Assembly: GCA_022483465.1 (NCBI GenBank) | Contig: JAKVNF010000002.1 | Coordinates: forward strand, 744,001-808,000 | Direction: 5' to 3' | From: Lachnospiraceae bacterium | GTDB taxonomy: Bacteria > Bacillota > Clostridia > Lachnospirales > Lachnospiraceae | Length of the DNA: 64,000 nucleotides | In this document: piece by piece, positions 47,136 to 56,703 of the stretch | How the letters are laid out: the number at the start of each line of letters is the position of its first letter | Position numbering within the stretch: position 1 is the first letter of the stretch | The notes under the pieces: generated by a model | Told to the model about the DNA's origin: nothing | Databases searched by the model: none | Seen by the model: only the letters and a program-made list of their open reading frames with translations | Program-made: the position numbers and the translations under genes

Positions 47136-47164
47136 AGGATACCATCGCCCTCTCGAAAGTGCAA
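47136..47164 (-). promoter_or_regulatory. promoter of the rhomboid-like/sigma-like cluster
   Basis: On the minus strand TTGCAC (47164-47159), 17 bases and TATCCT (47141-47136). It lies about 70 bases before the TTG start chosen for the rhomboid-like gene. Confidence 0.55.
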
Positions 47165-47270
47165 ACTGAGGGAGGGTCCGCAGGGCCGCATCTGCGGGCT
47201 TTTCGGGCCTCTTCCCAAATCTTTCCCAAACAGGTTCGACAAATTTCAGAATTTGTGGCCCTTGGCCGCG

Positions 47271-47300
47271 TTGACAGGGTGCCAAGGAGCGCCTTAAAAT
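47271..47300 (+). promoter_or_regulatory. promoter of the dehydratase activase gene
   Basis: TTGACA (47271-47276), 18 bases and TAAAAT (47295-47300), about 65 bases before the ATG at 47366. Confidence 0.6.
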
Positions 47301-47365
47301 TCCATCGTCTATGGTCGGGCTTTCCCTTTTTAATAAGTAAACAGCCCAATTCAACAGGAGTTTTC

Positions 47366-50300
47366 ATGATTTCAAGAGATTATACCCTCGGCATTGATAT
47401 CGGTTCCACCACCGTCAAAGTGGCGCTGATGGACCGCGACAAAAATCTGATCTTCGGCGACTACAAGCGCCATCACGCAGAGATTCGGCAGACCCTCTAC
47501 AACCTCCTCCTGGAGGCACATGACAAGGTGGGGAATGTCACCGTGCACCCGGTGATCACCGGCTCCGGCGGACTCTCGCTGGCCAACTATCTGAAGATCC
47601 CCTTCGTACAGGAGGTGGTGGCGGAAGCAAGCGCCATCGAGAAGCTCGCTCCCAAGACGGATGTTGCCATCGAGCTGGGCGGCGAGGACGCCAAGATCAT
47701 CTACTTCAACAACGGAAACGTGGAGGAGCGCATGAACGGAACCTGTGCCGGCGGCACCGGTTCCTTCATCGACCAGATGGCATCCCTCCTGCAGACCGAC
47801 GCGTCCGGGCTCAACGAGTATGCCAAACACTACCAGTCCCTCTACACGATTGCTGCCCGCTGCGGCGTGTTCGCCAAGTCGGATATCCAGCCCCTGATCA
47901 ATGAGGGCGCCACCAAGGAAGACCTGGCGGCGTCCATCTTTCAGGCTGTGGTCATCCAGACGATCTCCGGCCTTGCTCAGGGCAAACCGATCCGGGGGCA
48001 TGTTGCCTTTTTAGGCGGCCCGCTCCACTTTTTGACAGAGCTGAAGGCCGCGTTTGTGCGGACCTTAAAGCTCGACGCTGAGCACACGATCGAGCCGGAG
48101 AACTCTCACCTCTTCCCGGCGATGGGCTCTGCCTTCAACGCCAAGGAGGATGTCTCCCTTCCGCTGGAGGAGCTCCTGGAGAAGACCAGCCACAAGCTCC
48201 AGATGGAGTTCGAGGTCTCCCGCATGGAGCCGCTCTTTGCCTCGAAAGAGGAGTACAACACCTTCCGCGCGCGGCATGATCAGTACCAGGTGAAAAAGGG
48301 CGACCTCAAGAGCTATCGCGGAAAGGCCTTCCTCGGAATCGATGCGGGCTCCACGACGACCAAGCTCGCCCTGGTGGGTGAGAACGGAGAGCTTCTGTAC
48401 TCGTTCTACTCCAGCAACAACGGCTCTCCCATCAAGACCGCGATCCGCTCCATCACCGAGCTCCACCACCTGATGCCCGAGGGCGTCACGATTGCGGGCT
48501 CCTGCTCCACGGGCTACGGCGAGGCGCTCTTAAAGAGTGCCTTCAAGCTCGATCACGGCGAGGTGGAGACCATCGCCCACTACTACGGCGCCTCCTACTT
48601 TGACCCGAAGGTCGACTGTATCCTGGACATCGGCGGTCAGGACATGAAGTGCATCCGCATCAAGAACGGCGCGGTGGATTCCGTCGCCCTGAACGAGGCA
48701 TGTTCCTCGGGCTGCGGTTCCTTCATCGAGACCTTTGCCAAGTCCCTCTCCTACACCGTGCAGGACTTCGCCAAGGCGGCCCTGTTTGCCAAGCACCCGA
48801 TTGACCTGGGCACCCGCTGCACCGTGTTCATGAACAGCCGCGTGAAGCAGGCCCAGAAGGAGGGCGCAGAGGTCCCGGATATCTCCGCAGGCCTTGCCTA
48901 CTCGGTCATCAAGAACGCCCTGTTCAAGGTCATGAAGGTCTCCTCCGCGGCAGAGCTGGGCCAGAACATCGTGGTCCAGGGCGGCACCTTCTACAATGAC
49001 GCGGTGCTGCGCGCCCTCGAGAAGATCGCAGACGGCCAGGTGATCCGGCCGGATATCGCGGGCATCATGGGCGCCTTCGGCGCAGCCCTGATCGCAAGAG
49101 AGCGCTATGACGAGAGCGTTCCCACCACTATGCTCTCCTTCGACGAGATCGAGGCCCTGACCTTTGCGACCACCCTGACCAACTGCGGCAAGTGCCAGAA
49201 CAACTGCCGCCTGACCGTGAACCACTTCTCCGACGGCCGGCAGTTCATCTCCGGCAACCGCTGCGAGAGAGGCCTCGGCCTGGAGCGCACCGACAACGGC
49301 GTTCCGAACATGTACAAGTACAAGATGGGCCGGATCTTCGGCTACCGCCCGCTCTCCGAGAAGGAGGCGACCCGCGGTACCGTGGGCATTCCCCGTGTCC
49401 TGAACATGTATGAGGACTATCCGTTCTGGGCGACCTTCTTCAAGAAGCTGGGCTACCGGGTCGTGCTCTCCCCGCCGTCCACCCACAAGATCTACGAGAT
49501 GGGCATCGAGTCCATCCCTTCGGAGTCCGAGTGCTATCCCGCGAAGCTGACCCACGGCCATGTGGAGTGGCTGATCCAGAAGGGTGTCGACTTCATCTTC
49601 TATCCGTCTCTGTTCTATGAGCGGCAGGAGTTCAAGGGCGCGGACAACCACTACAACTGCCCGGTGGTCTCCTCCTATCCGGAGAACATCGCCAACAACG
49701 TGGAGTCCATCGCCGACGGCTCCGTGGTCTTCCGCCACCCGTTCATGGCCTTCACGGACATCGCCACGGTGACCAACGCCCTGGTGCGGGAGTTCCACGA
49801 GATCCCCCGGGAGGAGGTCTCCAAGGCGGCCCTTGCCGGTTGGGAAGAACTGGCCAACTGCCGCAAGGACATCCAGGCAGAGGGCGAGCGCGTCCTCAAG
49901 TACATCGAGGAGCACAACATGAAGGGCATCGTCCTCGCAGGACGCCCTTACCATATCGATCCGGAGATCAACCACGGCATCCCGGAGATGATCACCAGCT
50001 ACGGCATCGCGGTCCTCTCCGAGGACGGCATCTCTCAGCTGGGCACTCTGGAGCGCCCGCTCCGTGTGCTGGACCAGTGGATGTACCACTCACGGCTCTA
50101 CGAGGCGGCCTCCTTTGTCCGCACCAGGGATGACCTGGAGCTCATCCAGCTCAACTCCTTCGGCTGCGGCGTGGACGCCGTCACCACCGATGAGGTGAAT
50201 GAGATTCTCGAGGGCTCGGACAAGATCTATACCTGCCTGAAGATCGATGAGGTCAACAGCCTCGGCGCCGCAAGAATCCGCGTGCGTTCCCTGATCGCCG

Positions 50301-51682
50301 CGGTCCGGATCCGGGACAAGAAGAAGGCAAAGCGCATCATCCGCTCCACGGAGCAGAAGAAAGTCCCCTACACCGAGGAGATGCAGAGGGAGAAGTACAC
50401 GATCATCTGCCCGCAGATGTCCCCGGTCCACTTCGACCTGATTCAGGCAGCGGCCCGCTCCTGCGGCTACAACTTCGTGGTCCTGCCCAACGACAACAAG
50501 AAGGCCGTGGACTACGGCCTCAAGTATGTCAACAACGACGCCTGCTACCCGTCCCTGTTCGTCGTGGGACAGATCATGGAGGCGCTGGAGTCCGGCAAGT
50601 ACGACGTCAACCGCACGGCCATCATCATGAGTCAGACGGGCGGCGGATGCCGTGCCTCCAACTACATCGGCTTCATCCGCAGGGCCCTGAAGAAGGCCGG
50701 CATGGAGCAGGTGCCGGTCATCAGTGCAAACCTCGCAGGCCTCGAGTCGAACCCGGGCTTCAAGATCAACTTAAAGCTCCTGGTGCGCATGGCCTTCGGC
50801 TGCGTCTTCGGAGACGTGTTCATGAAGTGCATCTACCGGATGCGGCCCTATGAGATCGAGAAGGGCTCCGTGGAGGCCTGCCACCAGAAGTGGCTGAAGC
50901 GCTGCACCGAGTTCCTCGAGAACACCAAGGGCGTCCCGATCCGCAAGGTTCAGAAGATGTGCAAAGAGATCATCGAGGACTTCGACCGCATCCCGATCCA
51001 CGAGGATTGGAAGAAGCCCCGGGTCGGCATCGTCGGTGAGATTCTGGTCAAGTACGCGCCGGCCGCCAACAACCACCTGGTGGACACCCTGGAGGCAGAG
51101 GGGGCCGAGGCCGTGGTGCCCGACCTCATGGGCTTCATGCTCTACTGCTTCTACAACCAGATCTACAAGGCGGACTACCTTGGCACCAGCAAGAAGACCA
51201 AGGTCATCATGCAGGTCTCGATCAAGGCGATTGAGGACTTCTTAAAGCCCATCAACCGTGCCTATGAGGCGTCAAAGCACTTCGAGCCCTCCGCCTCGAT
51301 CTACACGATTGTGGAATATGCGAAGGAGCTGGTCTCCATCGGCAACCAGACCGGAGAGGGCTGGTTTCTCGCCGGCGAGATGGTGGAGCTGATCCGCACC
51401 GGCGTGCCCAACATTGTATGCATCCAGCCCTTCGGATGCCTGCCGAACCACGTGGTGGGCAAGGGCGTGCAGAAGAAGGTGCGCAAGCTCTATCCCCAGG
51501 CAAACCTGGCTGCGATCGACTACGATCCGGGTGCTTCCGAGGTCAACCAGTTAAACCGCATCAAACTGATGCTCGCTTCCGCCCAGAAGGCGATGGAGCG
51601 CCAGAAGGACCTGCTGCCGAAGGAAGAGGCCGAACTGCCCGAGGCAGGGGAAGAAAAGAACGAGGAAAAGCGCACCGCATGA
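47366..51682 (+). CDS. two-domain acyl-CoA dehydratase activase (BadF/BcrA ATPase family)
   Basis: The 1438-residue protein has two ASKHA ATPase domains: GIDIGSTTVKVALMD (about 8) with GTCAGGTGSFIDQM (about 125), and GIDAGSTTTKLALVG (about 326) with EACSSGCGSFIE (about 445). The Cys in each second motif is the place of the bridging [4Fe-4S] cluster in known activators. A DUF2229-like region follows (about 600-900, with cysteines KCQNNCRL) and a C-terminal part resembling the dehydratase subunit (LPNDNKKAVDYGL, NNDACYPSLFVVGQ, QTGGGCRASNY). Such proteins use ATP to send a low-potential electron to a 2-hydroxyacyl-CoA dehydratase; the large form's exact partner is not known. ATG 47366 has AGGAG upstream. 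Monocistronic. Confidence 0.88.
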   Translation: MISRDYTLGIDIGSTTVKVALMDRDKNLIFGDYKRHHAEIRQTLYNLLLEAHDKVGNVTVHPVITGSGGLSLANYLKIPFVQEVVAEASAIEKLAPKTDVAIELGGEDAKIIYFNNGNVEERMNGTCAGGTGSFIDQMASLLQTDASGLNEYAKHYQSLYTIAARCGVFAKSDIQPLINEGATKEDLAASIFQAVVIQTISGLAQGKPIRGHVAFLGGPLHFLTELKAAFVRTLKLDAEHTIEPENSHLFPAMGSAFNAKEDVSLPLEELLEKTSHKLQMEFEVSRMEPLFASKEEYNTFRARHDQYQVKKGDLKSYRGKAFLGIDAGSTTTKLALVGENGELLYSFYSSNNGSPIKTAIRSITELHHLMPEGVTIAGSCSTGYGEALLKSAFKLDHGEVETIAHYYGASYFDPKVDCILDIGGQDMKCIRIKNGAVDSVALNEACSSGCGSFIETFAKSLSYTVQDFAKAALFAKHPIDLGTRCTVFMNSRVKQAQKEGAEVPDISAGLAYSVIKNALFKVMKVSSAAELGQNIVVQGGTFYNDAVLRALEKIADGQVIRPDIAGIMGAFGAALIARERYDESVPTTMLSFDEIEALTFATTLTNCGKCQNNCRLTVNHFSDGRQFISGNRCERGLGLERTDNGVPNMYKYKMGRIFGYRPLSEKEATRGTVGIPRVLNMYEDYPFWATFFKKLGYRVVLSPPSTHKIYEMGIESIPSESECYPAKLTHGHVEWLIQKGVDFIFYPSLFYERQEFKGADNHYNCPVVSSYPENIANNVESIADGSVVFRHPFMAFTDIATVTNALVREFHEIPREEVSKAALAGWEELANCRKDIQAEGERVLKYIEEHNMKGIVLAGRPYHIDPEINHGIPEMITSYGIAVLSEDGISQLGTLERPLRVLDQWMYHSRLYEAASFVRTRDDLELIQLNSFGCGVDAVTTDEVNEILEGSDKIYTCLKIDEVNSLGAARIRVRSLIAAVRIRDKKKAKRIIRSTEQKKVPYTEEMQREKYTIICPQMSPVHFDLIQAAARSCGYNFVVLPNDNKKAVDYGLKYVNNDACYPSLFVVGQIMEALESGKYDVNRTAIIMSQTGGGCRASNYIGFIRRALKKAGMEQVPVISANLAGLESNPGFKINLKLLVRMAFGCVFGDVFMKCIYRMRPYEIEKGSVEACHQKWLKRCTEFLENTKGVPIRKVQKMCKEIIEDFDRIPIHEDWKKPRVGIVGEILVKYAPAANNHLVDTLEAEGAEAVVPDLMGFMLYCFYNQIYKADYLGTSKKTKVIMQVSIKAIEDFLKPINRAYEASKHFEPSASIYTIVEYAKELVSIGNQTGEGWFLAGEMVELIRTGVPNIVCIQPFGCLPNHVVGKGVQKKVRKLYPQANLAAIDYDPGASEVNQLNRIKLMLASAQKAMERQKDLLPKEEAELPEAGEEKNEEKRTA

Positions 51683-51741: not shown

Positions 51742-51792
51742 AAAAAAGAAGCCCTGAAATCGAATCACAATACTCTTCGATCTCAGGGCTTC
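51742..51792 (-). terminator. terminator of the long noncoding unit
   Basis: On the minus strand GAAGCCCTGAGATCGAA pairs with TTCGATTTCAGGGCTTC (17 bp, one mismatch), followed by T6. No minus-strand ORF of more than about 60 codons precedes it, so it ends a noncoding transcript. Confidence 0.92.
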
Positions 51793-52425
51793 TGCTCTGC
51801 GTTCTCCAATGGACTGAGAACCTCCGTGCTGTCTTCTTGTTGTCCTCTTCTATTCTGATTCCCTAGGCGGCGTACTTCCTGGCCGACATTTGCAGCGTCA
51901 TTGTATCGAACCTGTTCCCGGAACCTCTCTCTTTCCTACGAGGAACTCGACAGCGAACCTATGACCTTCTGCACTCTTTCCACATCCAACCTTGTACTCT
52001 GCTTGTACCGCGGTGTCCTGGGCATCTGCTCTTCTGTTTCCTTCTGTTATCATCCCTCCGGCTGTTGCATCCGGTTTTCACCGGTGTCGTATTCACCTTC
52101 CGAATGTTTCAAATCGGACATTTTTGAAGATCCAGCCTCAGCGAAACATCGCCTTATGATCTGTACTCGACTGCTTTGGTGTTTGTCTGCCTGTTCTTGT
52201 TATGGAGCTTTCTACCTATCGTGTCCGGCGGATTGTACCTCCTCTTCTGCCTTGAGCCTCCAGTTTCGTCCTTTATATATCTCTATATAAACATCAGCTT
52301 GCGTCCCACCGGTGCTTTTCCGGCTGCCTCCCAATCGGCCTGTACGGGGCTCCTTGTCGGGCTGTCACTGATGACCAGAGTGAGGAGATTTCCAGGCTTT
52401 TGTTGCATCTCCTCTTCTTTTTTCT
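51742..52425 (-). ncRNA. candidate large structured noncoding RNA, about 680 nt
   Basis: A promoter at 52460-52432 and the terminator at 51792-51742 bracket about 680 bases with no plausible ORF on the minus strand; the plus-strand ORF there is Cys/Ser-rich and without ribosome site. The predicted RNA starts with a hairpin GAGGAGAT...ATCTCCTC, has TTTATATA-GAGA-TATATAAA (a GNRA loop), GTTCTC...GAGAAC, and a long-range helix of 11 bp: CGTAC-A-GGCCGA (52346-52335) with TCGGCC-AGGAA-GTACG (51886-51871), separated by about 450 nt. Purine-rich joining segments are frequent. Size and style fit large bacterial RNAs such as OLE, ROOL or GOLLD; membership is not proven. G+C is lower than in neighbouring genes. 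Confidence 0.65.
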
Positions 52426-52431
52426 AACATG

Positions 52432-52460
52432 ATCTTAACATTGGCCCCTGCCTTTGTCAA
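52432..52460 (-). promoter_or_regulatory. promoter of the long noncoding unit
   Basis: On the minus strand a consensus TTGACA (52460-52455), 17 bases and TAAGAT (52437-52432). Confidence 0.65.
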
Positions 52461-52536: not shown

Positions 52537-53811
52537 TCAGGGCGTCTCGCTCTCCACAAAGGAGAGGGATCCATAGGTCTTCTGTGCGATGATGCTCCCG
52601 TCCCTTGCCGAGCGGATGACCAGTTTGGCGTTCCAGTCTTCCCCGGCGTCCTCCCGGGTCACCGTCAGGTTCTCCCCCAGCTGGTCGATGAGCTTTTGCT
52701 CAACCGTGCCCGGCTCGTAGCCGGAGAGCGTCAGCTCCCCGGTAAAATTCTCGTTGTTCAGCAGCATCAGGTTGATCGCAAAGCCCGCGTACTGGGTGAT
52801 GTTGTCCGTCAGGAAGGCCCGGTAGGCCTCGTAGTCCGTGTCCCAGGAGGTATAGGCGGGATCATCCCGGTGGTCTTGCAGGTCCGTGTGCTCTGTCAGC
52901 CACTCCCCCAGATATGCCGTCACCTTCCGTGCCCCGGAGGGATTTAAGTGGGCGTCCGCGTCATAGAGATCCGTGTCAAAGTCGACCAGGGAGGCATACT
53001 GGAGGTTCAGATAGGGGACATCGAGCTTTTTTGCGAGGTCTGCGATCCCGTTGGCTGCCTCCTGTTCCTCCTCGGTGGCGGGATAGGGCACGTTGATGAG
53101 AACCGGCGTGATGTCCTCCTGCCGGCAGTACTCCACAAGCTTTTGAATGTAGCTCATCCCGGGGGTGGAGAGCTGCGTCTTCTGACTTTCCGGGATCAGG
53201 GTGTCCCGCCCCTCACCCGGGGCGGACACCGCGATTCGCGACTCCGCTCCCTTTTCGGTGGTTGTCTCGATCCCGGTAAAGGCCTGGACGATGCTCTTTC
53301 CCGAGAGCTCCGTCCAGCGGCTGTGATAGAGCACAAAGGGGAACAGGAGCTCATTCTGTGTGTCTTTGTCATCCGGGTACAGGTCCTGCACCGCCTGGAT
53401 CTTCGTCTTTGTCAGGGGGAAGGCATCCAACGAGTCATGGGCCCACTCGGAACTCGGGGCCAGGTATTCACTCTCCGCCAGGCTCACATCCAGTACCGCC
53501 ACCTTCGGCTTGTGGACCTCGACGGCATTCCGGAGAATCCAGTAGGAGGTGGCAATCGTGATGCCGTGGCCGCCCAGGTTGTAGGAGGTGATTCCGTAGT
53601 CCTCCCAGAGCTGCATCGGGAAGATCCCGTTGATCACATGGCTGGTCCCGAGAAACAGGACGTCCACGTCGGTATCCTCCTGCAGAAAGGGATCCGTCTT
53701 GTAGTCGCTGTCCGTGCGCATGGTCACCCGGGCGGCGATCAGGATGCCGGCGATGGCGAGCGCCGCGGTGAACAGGACCGAGAGGATCCGGATTCCGATT
53801 TTTCTTCTCAT
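52537..53811 (-). CDS. SGNH-type acyltransferase/esterase partner of MBOAT
   Basis: The 424-residue protein has an N-terminal signal anchor (about 5-27) and an SGNH-like domain: DVLFLGTSHVINGIF (about 50) with the serine, and DADAHLNPSGARK (about 290) with the Asp-x-x-His pair, so the triad can be complete. This resembles DltD/AlgJ/AlgX proteins that finish acyl transfer outside the membrane. Its start is 13 bases after the MBOAT gene, with GAGGGG upstream. The pair probably O-acetylates an envelope polysaccharide. Confidence 0.78.
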   Translation of the reverse strand: MRRKIGIRILSVLFTAALAIAGILIAARVTMRTDSDYKTDPFLQEDTDVDVLFLGTSHVINGIFPMQLWEDYGITSYNLGGHGITIATSYWILRNAVEVHKPKVAVLDVSLAESEYLAPSSEWAHDSLDAFPLTKTKIQAVQDLYPDDKDTQNELLFPFVLYHSRWTELSGKSIVQAFTGIETTTEKGAESRIAVSAPGEGRDTLIPESQKTQLSTPGMSYIQKLVEYCRQEDITPVLINVPYPATEEEQEAANGIADLAKKLDVPYLNLQYASLVDFDTDLYDADAHLNPSGARKVTAYLGEWLTEHTDLQDHRDDPAYTSWDTDYEAYRAFLTDNITQYAGFAINLMLLNNENFTGELTLSGYEPGTVEQKLIDQLGENLTVTREDAGEDWNAKLVIRSARDGSIIAQKTYGSLSFVESETP

Positions 53812-53824
53812 CTTCCGTCCCCTC

Positions 53825-55306
53825 CTAGAACTGAAAGTAGATAAAGCCCGAGGCGCTGTAGGTTCCGCCCCAGACACCGACAACGGCAAGCAGCACCACC
53901 GTTCCGGCGATCACAAGCTCCCGGAACAGGCGGTTCTGGGCAAGGAGCCACGACGAGATGCGTTTTCCCCGAAGCTTGCAGAGGTCCGACGCAAGCAGAA
54001 TCAAAAGGCCCAAAAACAGCACCGCCAGATTCGGCAGATCCAGCCCGTAGGACGTCAGAGAGGCGCCGGCAATCTCACCGGGGCCGAAGCAGGCAAAGAT
54101 TCTTTGAATCATCAGAATGCCCGCGGACAGGGAGTCCGCACGGAAAAAGATCCAGGTGAAATTGATGAAGGCGCAGCTGACCAGGATTCGAAGAACCCGG
54201 AAGGAGGCGGCCTTCGTATTGATGGCAAGGGCGTTTGTCAGACGCCGGAAGGCCGGAGTCAGGATTTTTTCCAGGACGAGGAACAGGCCGTTCAGTCCGC
54301 CCCAGAACACAAAGGACCAGCTGGCCCCGTGCCAGAGACCGCTGACAAGGAACACGAGGAGAAGATTTGCATAGGTTCTCGCCCTGCTGCAGCGGCTGCC
54401 GCCCAGGGGGAAGTACAGGTAATCCCGAAACCAGCTGGAGAGGGAGATGTGCCAGTCCCGCCAGAATGCCTGAACGGAACCGGAAAGATACGGTGCGCGG
54501 AAGTTCTCAGCCAGTTCAATGCCCAGCATCTTTGCGCAGCCTGCTGCCATCATGGTGTAGCCGTAGAAGTCGCAGTAGAGCTGCAGGCCAAAGAGGATCA
54601 CCGCCAGAACGATCACCGAGCCCGCATACCCATTGGCCGCAAAACCGCCATAGACCGTGTCCACAAAGGTGCTGGCCCGGTCCGCGATTACAAGCTTCAG
54701 GAAGGCGCCCCAGAGAAAGTACAGAAGGCCCTGCTCCGCCTCAGCAAAGGCTGGCACCCTGGGATGCCTGAGCTGCGGCAGAAGCGCCTTTGCCCTTCCG
54801 ATGGGGCCCGCGAGGAGCTGCGGGAAAAAGCTCACAAAGAGGGCGTAGTCCAGGAGGCTGTGCTCTGCCGGTACCGTGCCCCGGTACACGTCGATCAGAT
54901 ACCCCACCGCCTGAAGTGTGAAGAAGGAGATGCCAACGGGCAGGGCGATGCCCGGCTCCTTCAGCAGATGGTCCGGTGAAAACAAAGAGAGGATCTGATT
55001 CAGGATCTGCACCGCAAAGTCCGTGTACTTGAAGACCGCGAGCATGCCGAGCGCCAGGACAAGGCCAAGTACGAGCGCCCTGCGGCGCGTCCTTTTCTCT
55101 GTCGTCTGCTTTGCCAGAGCCAGGCCCGCAAGATAGGTCACCAGGGTGCAGTATGCCAGCAGGATCCCGTACCACGGGGCCCGGTACATGTAGTAAAAAT
55201 AACTGACTGCCAGAAGCCAGGGCTTTTTGGCCCGCATCGGCAGCACGTAGTACAGAAGGGCTGCGACGGGGAAAAAGAGGAAAAAGGCTGTGGAGGTAAA
55301 GACCAT
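53825..55306 (-). CDS. MBOAT-family O-acyltransferase (AlgI/DltB-like)
   Basis: The 493-residue membrane protein has about 11 helices, the AlgI-type start FLFFPVAALLYYVLP, YFYYMYRAPWYG, and the catalytic histidine in SGLWHGASWSFVFWGGLNG (about 325). MBOAT enzymes carry acyl groups (usually acetyl) across the membrane to polysaccharides or teichoic acids. It is 12 bases after the polytopic membrane protein and followed by the SGNH partner gene, so the three form one operon. Confidence 0.92.
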   Translation of the reverse strand: MVFTSTAFFLFFPVAALLYYVLPMRAKKPWLLAVSYFYYMYRAPWYGILLAYCTLVTYLAGLALAKQTTEKRTRRRALVLGLVLALGMLAVFKYTDFAVQILNQILSLFSPDHLLKEPGIALPVGISFFTLQAVGYLIDVYRGTVPAEHSLLDYALFVSFFPQLLAGPIGRAKALLPQLRHPRVPAFAEAEQGLLYFLWGAFLKLVIADRASTFVDTVYGGFAANGYAGSVIVLAVILFGLQLYCDFYGYTMMAAGCAKMLGIELAENFRAPYLSGSVQAFWRDWHISLSSWFRDYLYFPLGGSRCSRARTYANLLLVFLVSGLWHGASWSFVFWGGLNGLFLVLEKILTPAFRRLTNALAINTKAASFRVLRILVSCAFINFTWIFFRADSLSAGILMIQRIFACFGPGEIAGASLTSYGLDLPNLAVLFLGLLILLASDLCKLRGKRISSWLLAQNRLFRELVIAGTVVLLAVVGVWGGTYSASGFIYFQF

Positions 55307-55318
55307 AGACGGCCCCCT

Positions 55319-56626
55319 TCAGCGGCGCGCGGCGGCTTTTGACGGCTTGCGCTCTCCCACTGCCGAGAGAACCAGGGAGCAGAGCGCATAGACCAGTGCC
55401 GCATAGATGTTGGCGACGAAATAGTGCTTGCTGTGCTCCACCACAATAAACGACCAGATCACCGGCAGCGCGGCGATCAGAAGATAGAGGGCCACATGCC
55501 GGGGCGGCAGATGCTTTCTCGTGGCAAAGAGCACGGCAAAGAAGACAAGAACCAAAAACACATAAGGTCCCTTCACGTTGCCCGGGGCAAATAGTCCCTG
55601 GAAGCAGTAGAGCACCCGGGAGAGCCGGGCGCCAATTCCCTGGCCGGGTCCCAGGTAGTAGACAAACATCCCCTGTCCGTCTCCCGTGCTCCCCACGATG
55701 AGCTCCGAGAGAAAGCCCTTGATCAGCATGGAGCCCACGTATCCGAAAAGCCAGAAGAGGCCGCCGGACAGCGCCGTGCCAAAGAGCTGCCGGTCGCTCT
55801 GCGGCCGGACGCGCGCCTCATTCAGCGAGATCTCCAGGATCATCGGCATTGTGACCGTCAGAAGCGGCGCCACGAGCGGCCCCAGGGCAAAGGAGAGAGA
55901 GCCCACCGCAAGGTAAAACAGGCCGCGGTACTTCTGAAACCAGTCTTTCTGATACCCAGTGGCCACCACCGCCGTCGCAAGAAGCAGGATCAAAACGTCC
56001 GATCCGGTGCTGATGGAAGCAGTCTGCAGCAGGAGACTTCGCATCAAAAAGGCGAGGCCAAAGGGCACCAGCCCCCGCCAGCCAAGGCGTGTGGTGATCC
56101 GGTAGGCGACATAGAAAAAGAGCGTTGCCACGATCATCCAGAACAGAAAGCGCATCTCCCCGGCATTCAAAAATACGAACAGGATCCGCAAAACGCCCAC
56201 GCACAGCATCCAGTACCGGCTGTAGGTCTGGTTAACTGTGGTCGGGTCCTGCGAATAGTACAGAGCGGTCACAATGTTCTTCCACTGGTAGTCGTCTTCC
56301 TGGCTGTCCACATTGGGATTGGTCTGATAGGGGAGCGCGACAGCGCTCCAGAGGGGATGCCCGTTGGTCTCCGAGAGGGCACAGTTCACCCAGATCAGAT
56401 CCGAGTGCACATCCGGCCAATAGGCCTTCATGTTGTCAAAGACCGGGGAGGTGGATTCATTCTGCCAGGTCCCCAGGGACTCCTCGATGTGCATTTTGAC
56501 CCTGCCCTCCCGCGGGATGCAGTAGGCAAGCGTCATAAAGAGCAGGTACAGCGCATTGAGAAGCAGAAGGAGCAGGATGCCCTTTCCGACAAGGAATGCC
56601 CGTCTTTTGACCATGTTGTTGTTCAT
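55319..56626 (-). CDS. polytopic membrane protein, unknown, polysaccharide operon
   Basis: About 435 residues with about ten hydrophobic helices, starting with a signal-anchor helix (about 10-35) and a large extracytoplasmic loop (about 40-130; YWPDVHSDLIWVNCALSE). It has no glycosyltransferase motif that I recognise. Three ATGs lie just after GGGAGG; the third (56626) has the best spacing. It is the first gene of the operon with MBOAT and SGNH proteins, so a polymer export or modification role is likely by context. Confidence 0.65.
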   Translation of the reverse strand: MNNNMVKRRAFLVGKGILLLLLLNALYLLFMTLAYCIPREGRVKMHIEESLGTWQNESTSPVFDNMKAYWPDVHSDLIWVNCALSETNGHPLWSAVALPYQTNPNVDSQEDDYQWKNIVTALYYSQDPTTVNQTYSRYWMLCVGVLRILFVFLNAGEMRFLFWMIVATLFFYVAYRITTRLGWRGLVPFGLAFLMRSLLLQTASISTGSDVLILLLATAVVATGYQKDWFQKYRGLFYLAVGSLSFALGPLVAPLLTVTMPMILEISLNEARVRPQSDRQLFGTALSGGLFWLFGYVGSMLIKGFLSELIVGSTGDGQGMFVYYLGPGQGIGARLSRVLYCFQGLFAPGNVKGPYVFLVLVFFAVLFATRKHLPPRHVALYLLIAALPVIWSFIVVEHSKHYFVANIYAALVYALCSLVLSAVGERKPSKAAARR

Positions 56627-56703
56627 CATCATCCTCCCGGCGTAGTTTGCCCCACCATCATACAACCGAAGCCCAATAATGGAAAACCTCAATTGCGGGC
56701 ACC

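Follow-up and report, generated by a model that had tools for sequence, protein, structure and literature searches.

A segment between positions 51,742 and 52,460 of the window, by which we mean the whole stretch of 64,000 nucleotides of Lachnospiraceae DNA that was analyzed, had been proposed to be a large noncoding transcription unit with long-range RNA structure, located between convergent protein genes. The question is whether this segment is indeed an inherited RNA gene, and which function such an RNA could have. The comparison with related genomes gives good support to an inherited RNA gene whose structure has been under selection, which carries Shine-Dalgarno (SD) modules and whose mini-ORF looks translated and is fused to the terminator; at the level of sequence, both the family and its anatomy are well supported. 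Our best reading of its function, namely a ribosome-engaging RNA that uses translation of its mini-ORF to gate the formation of its 3' end, is one that we believe and doubt in about equal measure. The features of the locus are as follows.

52432-52460, minus strand: promoter TTGACA (52460-52455), 17-nt spacer, TAAGAT (52437-52432); the same promoter type precedes the homologues
51742-52425, minus strand: predicted transcript of ~684 nt with its start at ~52425, based on promoter, terminator and homologues
52382-52414, minus strand: 5' hairpin GAGGAGAU...AUCUCCUC; stem unchanged in the related genome G040
52272-52291, minus strand: 8-bp hairpin with a GAGA tetraloop (GAAA in G040)
52229-52242, minus strand: module A, SD-like GGAGGUACAAUCCG without start codon; recurs in homologues, in tandem in some genera
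52147-52152, minus strand: 5' strand GCGAUG of helix P2 (5/6 pairs by reading)
52010-52015, minus strand: 3' strand CACCGC of helix P2; covaries in relatives
51994-52008, minus strand: hairpin H, GUAC-AAGCAGA-GUAC, by reading
51810-51825, minus strand: module B, SD sequence GGAGG (51825-51821) and an 11-nt spacer ending in CCA, from comparison with homologues and by reading
51783-51809, minus strand: mini-ORF UUG GAG AAC GCA GAG CAG AAG CCC UGA (MENAEQKP); start codon and a near in-frame stop are conserved in homologues
51748-51792, minus strand: terminator hairpin, with U6 at 51747-51742; the stop codon of the mini-ORF lies within its 5' arm
47159-51682, plus strand: BadF/BadG-type activase gene, the convergent left neighbor of the RNA

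The promoter and the terminator of the proposed unit were confirmed. Taken alone the promoter call is weak, with 2 promoter-like sites in the region versus 0.8 in shuffled sequences; it is borne out by the window's genus, where a promoter with a 10-12 of 12 match lies upstream of 44 of the 46 copies of the RNA. The terminator stem of 17-18 bp with its T6 was recognized by reading and then by folding, and its loop exceeds the limit of the terminator pattern scan. The RNA folds somewhat better than shuffled sequences (z = -2.2; none of 20 shuffles equals it). From these elements and the homologues we infer that the RNA is transcribed in the window. The neighboring genes are convergent, as described. 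To the right of the RNA, the minus strand carries a gene whose product matches no Pfam family, then an MBOAT gene and, farther off, glyA, which encodes serine hydroxymethyltransferase (SHMT). In the window and in G040 a membrane-protein gene, the MBOAT gene and one more gene (52537-56692) separate glyA from the RNA; in many other members of the genus glyA adjoins the RNA more closely.

Plain blastn recovered the RNA in one of 98 relatives (G040; 2/99 genomes when its own is counted), and over 397 genomes of the family it detected no homologue besides the window's own genome; searches above 40 genomes apply stricter filters, with loss of weak matches. The locus in G040 is 87% identical and has the same promoter, ends and gene order. 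The two sequences differ by indels of 1, 2 and 5 nt, and therefore no long frame is conserved. The claim that the segment has no plausible ORF is thus true for long ORFs only, because the eight-codon mini-ORF MENAEQKP (51809-51783) had been overlooked; since this mini-ORF is conserved, the RNA is probably not purely noncoding. The RNA of G040 is followed by tandem GC-rich repeats of ~30 nt (L063 11180-11330), which resemble terminator hairpins by reading.

A sequence profile (R1) built from the 5' part of the RNA led to three further loci (L123, L124, L125), all in the window's genus and all with glyA upstream on the same strand; the convergent activase follows in L123 and L125, and the contig of L124 ends sooner. 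A weak R1 match in G173 (L128) was rejected as chance; by eye the stretch reads as protein-coding DNA. For the genus as a whole the C-terminus of the activase, present in 55 of 62 genus genomes, served as an anchor, so the positions of the genus loci were not sampled at random. The stretch behind the activase was collected except in G028 and G060, and together with loci from elsewhere 53 genomes were examined. The 3' module occurs in 45 of these 53 genomes, in 46 copies (two in G041), with glyA upstream within the collected stretch in 37 of the 45. Among the eight genomes without a pattern match, the contig ends near the locus in G012 and G037, and no RNA was found in the stretch behind the activase in G015, G059 and G006. 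G035 and G021 have a promoter-like site and CAGTACAA without the 3' module; in G027 the RNA is present, but CCC precedes the TTG, which puts it outside the search pattern.

The members share a common anatomy: a near-consensus promoter, an A-rich leader, one or more SD modules of the GGAGGUACNGNCCA type, a structured core and a last module that has a start codon. The distance from the inferred start to the mini-ORF ranges from 222 to 677 nt across the genus, with 426 nt in the cultured relative Lachnospiraceae bacterium NK3A20, so that the large size originally emphasized is true for some species, including that of the window, but not for the family as a whole. Two loci, L170 (G041) and L285 (G211), contain two tandem copies of the RNA within ~0.9 kb, with slightly different mini-ORFs.

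Homologues also occur in other genera. A DNA pattern that combines hairpin H with the 3' module gave 29 matches in 84,980 species, with titles that are all Lachnospiraceae, Eubacteriales or Bacillota; 27 of these correspond to genus genomes, and L223 has the same sequence as L240 of another genus. The same pattern had no match in viral contigs, and no homologue was detected in the phages and plasmids searched. A covariance model of the 3' domain (R3, 34 sequences) matched in 97 of the 397 family genomes at E<=0.1, although many of these matches are probably chance. We inspected 69 R3 matches with E up to 0.027, excluding that of the window's own genome and counting one of the two in G298, and sorted them by a peptide-blind rule, which demands a promoter of at least 11/12 and a module A in between and ignores the reading frame. 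This rule was passed by 32 matches from 31 further Lachnospiraceae genomes. Of the remaining 37, 11 belong to a second RNA type; the others are chance matches or family members in which the promoter or a module is weaker. The nine R3 matches at E<=0.001 in 295 genomes of the order are all in Lachnospiraceae, and within the searches made the family was detected solely there.

The second RNA type (L290 930-1601, L270, L291, L302, L303, L298, L266, L295, L276, L260, L282) has the module GGAGG..CCAUUGGA in common with the first, followed by a different conserved domain and an ORF of 15-36 codons. In this domain CAAUAUG could pair with CAUAUUG; it also contains UACCACA and GAUGUGUAAAGAAACAUC. The second type has no Rfam match at E<=1. 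L260, L282 and L276 may be intermediates between both types.

Is this a known RNA? The original prediction left a choice between a new class and a divergent member of OLE. The models for OLE, ROOL and GOLLD gave no match at E<=10 on the region and none on the homologous loci that were scanned; the other Rfam families likewise had no covariance match to the RNA, in the region or on these loci, and Rfam 15 at gathering score, applied to the whole window, had no match. A tmRNA was rejected as well (ARAGORN reports 0 genes in the window; no Rfam match). The idea of a divergent OLE, ROOL or GOLLD therefore did not hold up, while a new class with real structure is supported by the homologues in 45 of 53 genus genomes, by those in other Lachnospiraceae genera and by covarying pairs. 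At the level of search results, no description of this RNA was recognized in the literature. An RNA that occurs across many genera of a dominant gut lineage is thus missing from the catalogue that was searched; the probable reason is that both its sequence and its size change fast. One locus with a family member also contains, elsewhere, a Clostridiales-1 RNA (RF01699, 124.7 bits; L258 2138-2304).

The structure that had been proposed was confirmed only in its local elements. Local hairpins, including the 8-bp stem with the GAGA loop, are present. The 11-bp helix between 52335-52346 and 51871-51886 was not upheld: one strand is invariant, and about half of the helix is gone in G040, because the partner GGCCAGGAAGUACG is changed to GGCCAGGAAGUGAUC. 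Covarying base pairs, as expected of a structured RNA family, are found instead in helix P2 and hairpin H. P2 sits at a fixed distance past a GAGTACA-like box and has one mismatch among 6 pairs in the window. Of 92 RNAs, 86 gave a hairpin; 63 of them entered the P2 test, and removing near-identical rows reduced these to 53. In these non-redundant rows, which derive from lists partly picked by eye with the peptide included, P2 pairs 6/6 in 28 of 53 versus 11.9 with permuted partners, a value reached by 0/500 runs, and A-U/G-C or U-A/C-G exchanges occur at 4 of 6 pairs. The window and G040 are absent from this count, as the finder picked a different hairpin there. This result supersedes an earlier run with a badly placed anchor (6/6 in 19 of 59 rows versus 7.8 permuted).

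Hairpin H was analyzed in 34 sequences: 97.8% of the cells are paired, and 2 of 4 pairs are changed on both sides. Its covariation score is reached by 0/500 shuffles; four of five measures are reached by at most 2/500, and the fifth, the number of pair types, by 92/500. Relatives have the stems GUUC/GAAC, AUAC/GUAU, GAUAC/GUAUC and GAUAU/AUAUC, and additional pair types occur in other genera, on a list picked partly by eye. A further helix, P1, judged on a similarly picked list, looked promising in a few species; it failed the permutation test and hence did not show the covariation found for P2 and H. L260 contains a long run of AAAGUACC-like units.

The motif GUAC is also enriched in family members away from hairpin H (188 versus 41 expected), and the core GNCCAUUGGA is conserved at the nucleotide level. 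Both observations would fit a structural RNA like OLE or raiA; GGAGG..CCAUUGGA would then serve as an RNA motif or as a protein-binding site, and the mini-ORF would be incidental. We consider this very unlikely on the evidence of the start codons, to which the modules lead.

Module A has a consensus of about AGAAAGGAGGUACNGNCCACC; that of module B is GGAGG, 8-12 nt ending in CC[A/G], then NUGGA. By sequence, both appear to be variants of a single module. Since the 16S rRNA in the window's genome has the 3' end GGCTGGATCACCTCCTTTCT, the modules are good SD sequences; 40 of 66 modules A have a longest exact match to the anti-SD of 7-9 nt. Many species have a single copy each of A and B. In G417, G258, G283 and G272, B is accompanied by four to seven further copies, and several of these arrayed modules, which were partly selected by eye, carry an AUG, one or two more codons and a stop. 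Among the 66 non-redundant modules A, again from a list picked in part by eye with the peptide in view, 50 reach an in-frame stop within 4 codons, versus 12 and 11 in the other frames; the module A of the window is without this near stop. An NTG is at the start position in 11 of the 66 and absent from 55.

Arrays with minigenes and the excess of in-frame stops could suggest a trans-acting ribosome sink that uses its SD modules and minigenes to capture 30S subunits or to deplete tRNAs via drop-off; a two-codon minigene is known to regulate in cis (PMC8708949). We judge such a sink quite unlikely. Since 55 of the 66 modules A have no NTG, their in-frame stop may be an RNA motif, and this lack of start codons could equally be claimed for the structural RNA just mentioned. 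Many species, moreover, have only one module of each kind. Finally, GGAGG is not enriched outside module B (65 versus 59). The overall enrichment of GGAGG (145 versus 67) was dropped as support; it is uninformative because the RNAs were selected for a GGAGG-type module B.

Behind module B lies the mini-ORF. All 38 distinct sequences of the genus reach an in-frame stop at codon 5-10; the other frames have one that early in 17 and 14 of 38. Because the genus pattern admitted only TTG or GTG before GA or AA, start and second codon are partly forced there, and claims on these two positions rest on the peptide-blind set. In this set an NTG is present in 32/32 with CTG allowed (24 TTG, 7 ATG, 1 GTG, 0 CTG). 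The ORFs have 2-13 codons, with 5-6 codons in 29 of 32, and the stop occurs within 14 codons in all. An RNA motif would not require NTG plus a near stop, nor a first base that is only T, A or G in 32 of 32, which argues against an incidental mini-ORF and thereby against the purely structural RNA. D or E at peptide position 2, in 29/32 of the blind set, could point to a functional short signal peptide (MDSxV, MDKAH, MENAEQKP). Positions 3 onward and the peptide length, however, vary widely among homologues, and we hold this explanation to be hardly credible.

The mini-ORF is closely tied to the terminator. Of 60 loci, chosen partly by eye and counted without a control set, 38 have a terminator stem that begins +16 to +18 from the start codon, and in 58 the stop codon has its end between -9 and +2 relative to where the stem begins. 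The two others are the window and G040; in both, the stem finder stretched the stem outward. With longer mini-ORFs the stem mostly shifts along with the stop codon (G052, G417, G026, G039, G051). In G034, G005, the window and G040 the stem stays near the start codon and the stop lies within it; in the window the stop codon is at 51785-51783, inside the main terminator stem.

This spacing, together with the precedent of the vmlR leader (PMC9226507), leads us to infer that a ribosome on the mini-ORF would block the terminator. The SD modules would dock 30S subunits, with module A, mostly without a start codon, as a standby site. A ribosome that translates the mini-ORF would cover the 5' arm of the terminator hairpin, and because of this 3' end formation and read-through would report whether ribosomes initiate there. 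The family offers a clean test of whether a conserved, terminator-tied mini-ORF with few codons couples translation initiation to RNA 3' end formation.

What read-through would reach depends on the genus. In other genera, 16 of 22 inspected loci have a GH3-domain gene, probably for a cell-wall enzyme, downstream of the terminator and in the same orientation. The 18 downstream proteins that were scanned comprise these 16 and two with LysM and peptidase S11 domains, the latter of the D-Ala-D-Ala carboxypeptidase family. Upstream, a LUD-domain gene is found in 4 of 4 scanned loci and SHMT in one. In one genome the RNA is followed in the sense direction by a gene that reads as TIR-like (L236 7600-8000). 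Among 44 loci of the window's genus, 38 have the end of the convergent activase within 635 nt of the mini-ORF; the other six (G003, G026, G033, G041, G046, G048) have more than 1 kb to the activase, with a sense ORF of at least 255 aa between. Judged from gene order, the family is largely syntenic across genera, and the activase in the window's genus occupies the place of GH3 elsewhere.

Outside the genus, read-through would lead into the GH3 gene at most inspected loci, and for this reason the element may be a translation-sensing leader there; the GH3 synteny argues for action in cis. One could go further and regard the RNA as a plain cis leader, a transcription attenuator of GH3, whose copies in the window's genus are remnants after a change of gene order. 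In addition to GH3, LysM and peptidase S11 genes behind the RNA, the sense ORF in 6 of 44 genus loci and the overlap of mini-ORF and terminator, as in uORF attenuators, are consistent with this. On comparative evidence, the putative short ORF with SD at an intrinsic terminator is that of such an attenuator; the downstream sense gene, seen as GH3 in other genera, is replaced in the window by the convergent activase. Remnants would decay, yet modules and mini-ORF are kept in 45 genus genomes and the promoter before 44 of 46 copies despite the convergent activase. Of 17 loci in which a sense gene follows the RNA, 9 also have a promoter-like site that overlaps the terminator (again without control set), so that the downstream gene may not need read-through. 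Overall, an explanation as a leader and its remnants appears unlikely to us.

Under the gating by the mini-ORF that we favor, the element of the window's genus, which stands mostly alone, would be a separate ribosome-engaging RNA, or its read-through would be antisense to the activase gene. A free-standing role is suggested because the element is conserved mostly without a sense gene behind it. Several points weigh against the gating: with a sense gene usually lacking in this genus, an attenuator would have nothing to regulate there; the promoter-like sites over the terminator may make read-through unnecessary for downstream genes; GGAGG shows no excess outside module B; helix P1 failed; P2 has its mismatch in the window, and the module A there no near in-frame stop; and the pair-type count of hairpin H does not exceed that of shuffles. 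An extended version would make it a new kind of bacterial RNA, which engages ribosomes in trans with modules of a strong SD and a minigene, repeated in some genera, whose last minigene gates its own terminator and whose abundance and length report the free 30S subunits or initiation capacity of the cells. This is conceivable, though on the unlikely side. The family also lends itself to testing whether ribosomes are bound in trans by SD modules that sit in a structured RNA.

Several known systems resemble this RNA in part. The dual-function RNAs RNAIII and SgrS combine a regulatory RNA with a small ORF. The present family likewise joins a regulatory-type RNA and a putative small ORF, which differs in being mostly 5-10 codons long and fused to the terminator. 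Sponge RNAs of the CsrB/RsmZ type carry many GGA motifs, as this RNA does. However, a CsrA sponge is unlikely in the genus, where CsrA is found in just 2 of 62 genomes (G015, G060) and is absent from the window's own. With OLE, ROOL and GOLLD (PMC12286853), the family shares a long RNA, an elaborate structure and an unclear function. It is unlike them in its variable size, its conserved mini-ORF, its occurrence in Lachnospiraceae only in the searches made and the lack of a covariance-model match. The two-codon ORF of axe-txe, described in PMC8708949 as a minigene in an mRNA leader, is similar in having very few codons; there it is a single minigene, whereas here modules recur in a structured RNA. 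The vmlR system of Bacillus (PMC9226507) is a 219-nt leader of one resistance gene with an antiterminator and an anti-antiterminator. Its uORF of 3 codons gates the terminator, the natural variants MDN and MDK work, and a 30S toeprint is found at +16. The RNAs described here are 220-690 nt long, carry several SD modules in some genera, often lack a sense gene downstream and have their stop codon at or in the terminator stem. What vmlR and this family have in common is a very short ORF with an SD sequence ahead of an intrinsic terminator.
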